DNA from: a bacterium
GTDB lineage: Bacteria > Cyanobacteriota > Vampirovibrionia > Vampirovibrionales > Vampirovibrionaceae
Direction of reading: 5' to 3'
Assembly: GCA_030429585.1 (NCBI GenBank)
Contig: JAUIEU010000001.1
Span: 801,994 to 865,993, forward strand
DNA: 64,000 nt
Below the pieces are notes generated by a model that did no database searches, was not told the origin of the DNA, and was given only the letters and a program-made list of their open reading frames with translations. Positions 12,537-14,820 of this stretch are shown in pieces; the stretch's first letter is position 1; each line of letters starts with the position of its first letter. A program made the translations under genes and the position numbers.

Positions 12537-13448
12537 GTGGCCACTACCAATGTTTTGGCAATGGCACGCCCCCGGCGTGGCAAACAGCAATCACCCCAAA
12601 CCAGCACCCCATTAACCCCACCCCTAAAGTGGGCCGGCGGTAAGCGCTGGTTATTGCCTATTTTGCAACAATGCTGGAACCCTGACGAAAACCACCGACT
12701 GGTAGAGCCCTTTTGTGGCGGCGGCAGCGTGGCCCTAGGCCTAGAACCCAGCCAAGCCCTCCTTAATGATGTGAACCCCCACCTTATTAACTTTTACCAA
12801 CAAATACAGGCCGGGCTACGCATTAACACCCCCATGCTCAACGACCGAGAGGCCTACTTTGAAACCCGCGAGAAATTTAACGCCCTTATTGTAAAAGGCA
12901 ACGCCAACACGGCCAAAGCCGCCGGGTATTTTTATTACCTAAACCGTACTGGGTTTAACGGCCTGTGCCGATTTAACAAAAAAGGCCTGTATAACGTGCC
13001 TTTTGGCCGGTACAACACCATTAATTACCGAGAAGATTTTAGCCTGTACCAGCCCGCCTTGGATGACTGGACCTTTCGGTGCGGGGATTTTGAAGATTTA
13101 ACCCTTAAGCCCAACGACTGGATTTACGCCGACCCGCCCTATGACGTGGACTTTACCCAATACAGCGCCGGTGGCTTTACCTGGGATGACCAAGTACGCC
13201 TGGCCACCTGGCTTGCGGCGCAAAACGTGCCCATGCTCGTTAGCAACCAGGCCACCCCGCGGATATTAGAGCTATACAGCGATTTAGGCTTTGACGTGCT
13301 AACCTTGCCTGCCCCACGGCGCATTGCCTGCAACGGCAACCGGGCTAACGCCACGGAAATGTTGGCGATGAAAAACGTGCTGGTTGGCGTAAAACCCAAA
13401 ACCCTGCACCCACAAGCCACCATTATTCGTGCGGGTAAGCGGGCCTAA
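12537..13448 (+). CDS. D12-class N6-adenine DNA methyltransferase
   Basis: A 303-residue Dam-like enzyme. PLKWAGGKRWLLP near residues 29-41 is the SAM-binding motif I, EPFCGGGSVALGL follows, RTGFNGLCRFN is the D12-family middle motif, and the catalytic DPPY is in YADPPYDVDF. It methylates adenine N6, with GATC the commonest family target, though the site cannot be read from sequence alone. It starts with GTG, supported by AAGGA 8 bases upstream. No restriction endonuclease is adjacent, so it is an orphan or part of a system with the divergent HerA-like ATPase. Confidence 0.92.
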   Translation: MATTNVLAMARPRRGKQQSPQTSTPLTPPLKWAGGKRWLLPILQQCWNPDENHRLVEPFCGGGSVALGLEPSQALLNDVNPHLINFYQQIQAGLRINTPMLNDREAYFETREKFNALIVKGNANTAKAAGYFYYLNRTGFNGLCRFNKKGLYNVPFGRYNTINYREDFSLYQPALDDWTFRCGDFEDLTLKPNDWIYADPPYDVDFTQYSAGGFTWDDQVRLATWLAAQNVPMLVSNQATPRILELYSDLGFDVLTLPAPRRIACNGNRANATEMLAMKNVLVGVKPKTLHPQATIIRAGKRA

Positions 13449-13550: not shown

Positions 13551-13627
13551 CGGGCCGTAGCGCAGCTTGGTAGCGCACCACATTGGGGTTGTGGGGGTCG
13601 CAGGTTCAAATCCTGTCGGTCCGACCA
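13551..13627 (+). tRNA. tRNA-Pro(GGG)
   Basis: This 77-base sequence folds as a cloverleaf. The acceptor stem CGGGCCG/CGGTCCG has one G-U pair, the D arm is GCGC-AGCTTGGTA-GCGC, the anticodon stem CCACA/TGTGG holds loop TTGGGGT with anticodon GGG, and the T arm is GCAGG-TTCAAAT-CCTGT. The 3' CCA is encoded. The C1-G72 pair and the overall sequence match bacterial tRNA-Pro. Confidence 0.95.
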
Positions 13628-13746: not shown

Positions 13747-14181
13747 ATGCAAATTAATCCCCCATATTTAGTTATTCTAGGCCCTCAGCGGCCTATTAAA
13801 AAAGAAATTGATGCCGTTACTACCGGACACCGAATTTTCCAACCCGAGCCAATAACGCAAAGTAATAATCCACCCACTACCGTTGTTGACTTAAGACCGA
13901 TTGAAAATGTCAGTCACGAAATATCTAACGCCCATAATCAGGGTGTTTTATACGCTTTAGAAAAATATTTGAACCAAACAGTTGAAGGGATTAGTACCAC
14001 TCTCGCGGGAGTTGAATTAAAGACATCCATTCCTCTCAAGGCAGAAGCAGCAGAAATTCCAAATGTAGTAGAGCAGGCTAGTTCACCACAAAAAGAAAAG
14101 CCCAAGCCAATCTCTTTGGTAGAAAAAACCAAACCAAATCCCCTTAGGGAAGAAAAAAGGAAACTAAGCTTAGAGGCCTAA
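13747..14181 (+). CDS. Hypothetical protein, Lys/Pro-rich C-terminus
   Basis: A 144-residue protein I do not recognise. The N-terminus is QINPPYLVILGPQRPIKKE, the middle (HEISNAHNQGVLYALEKYLNQ) is probably helical, and the last 40 residues are Lys/Pro/Glu-rich and likely disordered. No signal peptide or membrane helix is visible. Codon use is AT-richer than the neighbours (many AAA, GAA, ATT), as with the other small orphan proteins of this window. The ATG at 13747 is chosen because the open frame further upstream runs back into the tRNA gene. No good ribosome site is seen. Confidence 0.5.
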   Translation: MQINPPYLVILGPQRPIKKEIDAVTTGHRIFQPEPITQSNNPPTTVVDLRPIENVSHEISNAHNQGVLYALEKYLNQTVEGISTTLAGVELKTSIPLKAEAAEIPNVVEQASSPQKEKPKPISLVEKTKPNPLREEKRKLSLEA

Positions 14182-14244
14182 AATCTTGCGCCCCCGCTAA
14201 CAACCGCTAACAGGGGCACAACAACACATTATTGTGTTAGTAGC

Positions 14245-14370
14245 CTAACAGCAGGGCGCGTTACCTTGGCAACACATACTAGGGCAGCAGCCCGCCGCCA
14301 TTGCCGCTGGCACCAGCACCGTGGTTAGGGCAATAACAGCCACAAAAACAGTCGCTAATAATTTTTTCAT
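14245..14370 (-). CDS. Secreted Cys-Cys-rich micropeptide
   Basis: A 41-codon gene with a strong AGGAG 9 bases before its ATG. The product begins MKKLLATVFVAVIALTT and has a clear Sec signal peptide ending in PAAMA, leaving a mature peptide of about 16 residues (AGCCPSMCCQGNAPCC) with six cysteines in three adjacent pairs. Such a short, Cys-dense exported peptide could bind metal ions (copper, zinc) or fold through disulfides; no family is recognised. It is co-directional with, and 57 bases downstream of, another exported protein with Cys-Cys pairs, so the two are probably one operon. Confidence 0.75.
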   Translation of the reverse strand: MKKLLATVFVAVIALTTVLVPAAMAAGCCPSMCCQGNAPCC

Positions 14371-14427
14371 CGTAATAATCTCCTAATACTAAGGTGTCGT
14401 ACAGTAATAGTGGGTTAGGAGAAGGCT

Positions 14428-14820
14428 TTAATTGAGCAGGCGGGCCAATCGTAAATACCGATACCGATGGCTCGGTTGGTAACGCTGCTGATACACACGA
14501 GTATTTGCAGGGTTATTGTTAAAAGCAATAAGCGGCTGTGCTAACGTGCTAGGCGCCGGTAAGGCAGCAGATAGATGTTGTGTAGTCTTATCAGTGGCAT
14601 TAAGCGTGCTAGCAGGCAGCACGGCAGGCGACACACTACAACACGGCGCCAACACAGGCACATCGTCCGCAGGTTCTGGTTGAGCTGAATGACACGGCGT
14701 TGGCTGAGGAGCCGTTTGCGAGTCATTATCGCAACAGGCATGCGACACGCCAGCCAATGACCATACGGCCACCAGCACCGTTAAAACGGCAAACAAGGTA
14801 CGTGTTATAAAACGCTGCAT
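14428..14820 (-). CDS. Exported protein with Cys-Cys pairs
   Basis: A 130-residue protein with an N-terminal signal peptide (RFITRTLFAVLTVLVAVWSL, cleavage near VSHA). Directly after it come CCDND, later TPCHS and APCCSVSP, so the mature N-terminal half carries five cysteines, two pairs of them adjacent. The C-terminal region is basic and aromatic (QQRYQPSHRYRYLRLARLLN). The GTG 15 bases upstream is a less likely start. No family is recognised. Cys pairs together with the neighbouring Cys-Cys micropeptide suggest metal handling at the cell surface, but this is inference. Confidence 0.6.
   Translation of the reverse strand: MQRFITRTLFAVLTVLVAVWSLAGVSHACCDNDSQTAPQPTPCHSAQPEPADDVPVLAPCCSVSPAVLPASTLNATDKTTQHLSAALPAPSTLAQPLIAFNNNPANTRVYQQRYQPSHRYRYLRLARLLN

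Follow-up and report, generated by a model that had tools for sequence, protein, structure and literature searches.

Why do two adjacent genes for predicted exported proteins, both with vicinal cysteine (CC) pairs, lie together in a bacterial chromosome, and what does the second of them, a 41-residue micropeptide gene, do there? The question is raised by one locus in the 64,000-nucleotide stretch of DNA analysed here (called the window), which belongs to G000, a genome of 2.21 Mb in a single contig. The initial annotation had offered a metal-binding system, a disulfide-rich toxin or a peptide hormone. Our own reading, which we regard as reasonably probable, is that the pair forms a self-regulated metal-defence unit, in which a nascent-chain metal sensor of the CutF/SilD kind would control an exported Cys micropeptide.

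The two genes and their conservation

Both genes are minus-strand ORFs, as had been annotated from the sequence. The large gene (14428..14820, minus strand; ATG at 14820, stop at 14428) appears in the ORF list, has homologues in 9 genomes and encodes an apparently exported Cys-pair protein of 130 aa, the proposed nascent-chain metal sensor or leader ORF. Its mature part begins near HACC, with CC at residues 29-30 and 60-61; the last CC is 69 residues from the C-terminus, and the protein ends in RYLRLARLLN directly before the stop. The large proteins have a basic start, a hydrophobic stretch and an AxA-like site ahead of the CC, as read off the alignment without a signal-peptide predictor. The Shine-Dalgarno of the large ORF is weak, and the strong AGGAG is that of the small gene (14245..14370, minus strand), 9 nt 5' of its ATG. 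This gene encodes a 41-aa Sec-type precursor with a lysine start, a hydrophobic stretch and an AMA-A site, in which the signal part MKKLLATVFVAVIALTTVLVPAAMA is followed by the predicted mature part AGCCPSMCCQGNAPCC of about 16 residues. The six cysteines in three CC pairs that had been noted for the mature part are all present. A strong hairpin with a 16-bp stem lies 3' of the small gene (14185..14220, minus strand; -37.9 kcal/mol for the 90-nt segment), and in the homologous units, as far as their contigs extend, the small gene is likewise followed by a comparable hairpin. From its predicted fold, the hairpin in the window is the probable transcription terminator of the unit. Beyond it, a plus-strand ORF (13747-14181) rich in charged residues converges with the pair and has no Pfam or NCBIfam match, and a solitary gene for a D12-class adenine methyltransferase (12537-13448) stands just before tRNA-Pro (13551-13627).

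Neither protein has a match in Pfam or NCBIfam, and the small peptide also has none among PDB sequences, which agrees with the earlier remark that it is unlike known metallothioneins or lantibiotics. A DUF2486 match to the large protein was rejected as it was far under the cut-off. The exact codon pattern CCxxxCCxxxxxCC-stop occurs a single time in the 2.2 Mb genome, and its listed occurrences elsewhere in the class have the look of GCT/CTG repeats or of other chance matches. The first search with the small peptide gave relatives in another genus of the family, where a large relative is located just upstream. With profiles of both genes and the loci read, the two-gene unit was recovered from 9 of the 18 genomes of the order, in two families (f1: G000, G001, G004, G006, G007 and G008; f2: G012, G014 and G016, the small gene of G016 running off its contig). 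The search of related genomes for a small CC peptide beside the large gene, which the initial annotation had recommended, thus returned the pair.

Across the nine genomes the large-protein homologues, 112-145 aa long and thus under 150 aa, were found by profile search with E values from 1e-27 to 3e-42. The order is large then small in all of the pair-bearing genomes, with a gap of 44-139 nt. At least four different neighbourhoods were seen: ETF-QO in the window, an ilvE-like aminotransferase with Era in G004-G008, an SNF2-type helicase with a prepilin peptidase in G001, and others in G014 and G016. Since the surroundings change and the gene order is constant, the pair stays together as a unit. 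No variation was seen in the six cysteines of the small peptide or in the first CC of the large protein. Between G004 and G007, dN is 0.06 and dS is 0.41 for the small gene (dN/dS about 0.15), and the corresponding values for the large gene are 0.06 and 0.51 (about 0.12); both genes are under purifying selection. Therefore, with homologues side by side elsewhere, invariant cysteines and low dN/dS, the pair is not a product of chance.

Samples of 289 genomes from the class and 339 from the phylum contained no convincing large-family relative outside the order, and tblastn of plasmids with both genes gave nothing credible. A DNA pattern scan of named genomes for CCPxxCCxxxxxCC produced at least 118 stretches, and of the 80 examined a single one encodes a plausible small exported protein. 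This protein, of 90 aa and from Pirellulales (L114 3205-3477), has a CCQP repeat (CCPTSCCQPVAPCCQPVAPC) and a different tail, and was judged probably convergent. Separate families of CC proteins were also observed. In G033, a three-CC exported peptide of another family ending NACCGQGLPCCESVSACCN (L220 9162-9308) is followed by a Cys-rich ORF ending RVYLLNRSLLI (L220 9327-9734), so that the order is reversed compared with the window; this partner ends in YLLNRSLLI, yet profile comparison gave no homology with the large family. Family f4 (L240 1501-1737 and L243 1402-1635) has an exported protein of 77-78 aa that begins GEGCCSKKQKAEATEDCCKDKAKAEAKG, contains two CC pairs and has a tail rich in Lys and Ala.

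Pairing between the large ORF and the small-gene ribosome-binding site

In all nine genomes, the end of the large ORF, either its last codons or the nucleotides just past its stop, forms an RNA helix with the Shine-Dalgarno region of the small gene. In G004, for example, the last large codons GTA CTC CTG AAC TAA are complementary to the small-gene Shine-Dalgarno region TTCAGGAGT. The arms covary: their sequences differ between genomes and the pairing is retained. CTCCTG/CAGGAG is kept in G008 and G014, and the compensatory arm pair CTCCTGAA/TTCAGGAG (large-end arm first, Shine-Dalgarno arm second) occurs among the genomes. The arms are CTGAATTAA/TTAATTCAG in G006, TTTGTTGCTTA/TAAGCAACAAA in G001, TTATTGAAC/GTTCAATAA in G016, and CTTTCTATT/AATAGAAAG in G012, about 30 nt ahead of its stop; in these four genomes the helix covers the Shine-Dalgarno only partly or ends just before it. 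In the window, the anti-Shine-Dalgarno TCTCCTAA (14415..14422, minus strand) starts 5 nt past the stop codon of the large ORF and pairs with TTAGGAGA (14379..14386, minus strand), the small-gene Shine-Dalgarno. This is the weakest helix of the set by duplex energy, with 8 bp, and 74 of the 338 other ORF windows score equally well; in the partition function, the Shine-Dalgarno of the window pairs with the anti-Shine-Dalgarno region at a probability of 1.0.

The folding energies of the whole regions are modestly below those of shuffled sequences (z between about -0.8 and -2.9, and in one case slightly above zero), and so we relied on directed tests of the helix. The summed duplex energy of the cognate arms was matched by 6 of the 40,320 inter-genome re-pairings, and the terminal window out-pairs all other windows of the ORF in six of the nine genomes. 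The helix energies are also lower than those of 26 ordinary neighbouring gene pairs (p=9e-5), some of which also reach -15 kcal/mol; as the helix windows were picked after the first folds had been seen, the p-values are indicative, and the re-pairing and positional controls are less affected. Given this pairing of its end with the small-gene ribosome-binding site, we see in the large gene more probably a regulatory leader (a sensor) than an equal partner. A metal-binding system, as proposed earlier, is retained as the leading option; the RNA switch had been missed.

Cysteine spacing, metal links and the proposed mechanism

Seven genomes have a second CC pair, and in all seven the last CC is located 65-69 residues from the C-terminus, even though these proteins vary in length from 112 to 130 aa and in the distance between their CC pairs, and have about 20-30% identity to the window protein. 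The C-terminus R-Y/H-L-x-L-x-x-L-L-N is kept in most members, with longer, changed tails in G001 and G012, and the distance from the last CC to the RYLxL motif is about 55-59 aa. In the window, other codons encode this motif and the helix arm lies elsewhere, which indicates that it is conserved as protein and not just as RNA. The motif is free of proline and corresponds to none of the known arrest sequences. Assuming that about 30 residues are held in the ribosome and the rest in SecYEG, an argument published for CutF, the last Cys pair would just be arriving at the periplasmic side as the ribosome comes to the stop codon.

The main rival to a sensor is plain translational coupling, in which ribosomes finishing the large ORF open the helix and the two products are made in a fixed ratio without sensing, both proteins being envelope metal buffers or thiol proteins. 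A helix at the stop codon would by itself suffice for this, and the large protein is conserved as a protein, as its dN/dS of 0.12 between G004 and G007 indicates. Nevertheless, we consider this explanation unlikely, since it leaves unexplained the 65-69 residue spacing at such low identity, the conservation of the extreme C-terminus, and the like layout found ahead of metal-efflux operons in G005 and in silD.

G005 is a sister genome without the micropeptide unit, and it has two different Cys leader ORFs (one at each of L263 14692-15108 and L264 25-444). The first, with the ending YPDQSKLYLQNRTLLL, heads genes for YtkA-like, CusB-like and RND efflux proteins; farther on, the same strand carries a P-ATPase of the Cu type that passes the TIGR01511 cut-off. 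This first ORF aligns at its C-terminus with the large-family profile (hhalign E 5.5e-6). Its last Cys falls 65 residues short of the end, and its last codons pair with the Shine-Dalgarno of the gene that follows. The second, unrelated ORF ends TIVLLI and heads an OEP / CusB / CusA-CzcA / P-type ATPase operon. Here the last Cys stands 69 residues before the end, and CCTCCGAC, directly behind the stop, pairs with the Shine-Dalgarno GTCGGAGG of the following gene. In silD of pMOL30, an outside control, the CQAHC cluster ends 62 aa from the end, and a strong helix joins the stop and Shine-Dalgarno regions across a 72-nt gap; czcI, a further reference, did not show the stop/Shine-Dalgarno helix. 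No metal genes lie beside the pair in the pair-bearing genomes. TIGR01511, the model of copper P-type ATPases, is matched nowhere in the whole genome of G000, in which COX1 is present; each of the 17 remaining genomes of the order contains one match or more, 10 being over the cut-off. Without a detectable Cu P1B-ATPase in G000, copper is not specifically implicated.

The same unit could also answer to a signal other than metal, with the Cys pairs sensing periplasmic redox or secretion status through disulfide formation on the nascent chain and the micropeptide acting as a thiol buffer. Vicinal cysteines are redox-active, and secretion sensors of the arrest type are known (SecM, VemP and MifM; PMC9973294). 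As sister leader ORFs of like layout head heavy-metal efflux operons, we give this version a low probability, below that of plain coupling.

The gene pair, the helix with its covariation, the spacing and the C-terminal motif are results of computation. The remainder of the metal-defence model, from stalling and its metal signal to the way the response runs and the binding of metal by the mature peptide, we infer as follows. The first ORF would yield an exported leader protein that is threaded through SecYEG during translation, and its Cys pairs would reach the periplasmic side at about the time the ribosome nears the stop, 65-69 residues being about the length of tunnel plus translocon. The ribosome could then be held or slowed at the end of the large ORF, most likely through a bound soft metal, e.g. 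Cu(I). A ribosome so held would cover or melt the helix, the strong AGGAG would be exposed and the micropeptide translated. After export and cleavage to about 16 residues, the peptide may bind metal via its three CC pairs, and an exported soft-metal scavenger is its most likely role.

The initial annotation had allowed a disulfide-rich toxin or a peptide hormone. Such a toxin, or a bacteriocin or signalling peptide, served by an accessory exported protein, would accommodate a small exported peptide with six cysteines and no database family, and is nonetheless very improbable, since from one neighbourhood to the next the pair has no constant companion among immunity, modification, processing or receptor genes, inspection of the neighbours revealed no modification, transport or immunity genes of RiPPs, lantibiotics or bacteriocins, and the mature peptide consists almost entirely of Cys, Gly, Pro and Ala in several genomes.

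Comparison with known systems

To our knowledge, the known bacterial metallothioneins are cytoplasmic and larger than an exported peptide of about 16 residues. The micropeptide resembles them in being Cys-rich, very small and, judging from its sequence, a probable metal binder; it differs in that it is exported, has about 16 residues with only CC pairs and matches no family.

We also put forward, as a tentative possibility, that the large family is a novel class of nascent-chain metal sensor. Its members would stall through a proline-free C-terminal motif (RYLxLxxLLN, with relatives such as YLQNRTLLL), the arrest segment and the anti-Shine-Dalgarno would occupy overlapping or adjacent nucleotides, and the dedicated output would be one exported metal-binding peptide of about 16 residues. 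In the literature searched, we did not find a single exported micropeptide described as the output of such switches. The sensing of extracytoplasmic metals by a half-made protein, as for CutF, is a recent finding and was catalogued with a C-terminal PP filter; an RNA switch and a strict length ruler without a PP motif suggest that the known catalogue may miss whole classes. The ruler, a last Cys about 62-69 residues from the end in the large family, the two efflux-operon leaders and SilD, provides a simple way of finding more of them, and it can also serve in tests of how metal bound in the translocon holds a ribosome.

CruR of the DUF2946 family is likewise an exported Cys leader ORF with a conserved spacing between its Cys motif and its C-terminal motif, and it differs by its RAPP arrest motif, Rho-dependent termination and longer intergenic region (PMC9426467). 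Among the large proteins scanned against Pfam, none matched DUF2946, and the CXXC and RAPP motifs are absent. SilD (pMOL30, Cupriavidus metallidurans), whose family is listed among the CutF-like proteins (PMC9973294), shares with the large protein a cysteine cluster (CQAHC, 62-66 aa from the end) and a helix between stop and Shine-Dalgarno regions. On the other hand, it heads an RND efflux operon, has a different sequence and carries a PPP stretch near its end.

The closest comparison is with CutF and CutO. The exported Cys leader of Rhodobacter capsulatus, CutF, has to undergo both translation and export in cis, and the copper response opens a stem-loop over the cutO Shine-Dalgarno (PMC9973294). 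Both systems have a short Cys protein directly upstream (exported in CutF, apparently exported here), a stem-loop that shields the Shine-Dalgarno of the next gene (found here by computation, with partial cover in four genomes), a conserved C-terminus at a fixed distance from the metal motif, and a short intergenic gap (mostly under 100 nt for CutF-like proteins; 44-139 nt here). That distance is 45 aa in CutF, whereas about 55-59 aa separate the last CC from RYLxL here; CutF has a proline motif and CxxxC, in contrast to vicinal CC and no such proline motif here. The output of the former is a Tat multicopper oxidase, that of the latter a 41-aa Sec-type micropeptide, and the hosts are Pseudomonadota for the former and, judging by the set of relatives, probably Vampirovibrionia for the latter. 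The CutF-like catalogue was filtered by a PP motif in the last 15 residues (PMC9973294), and none of the nine large proteins has PP there, which places them outside that class. By the published filter the large protein is not CutF-like, yet it appears to work like one, and we regard it as a variant of the CutF type rather than a member.
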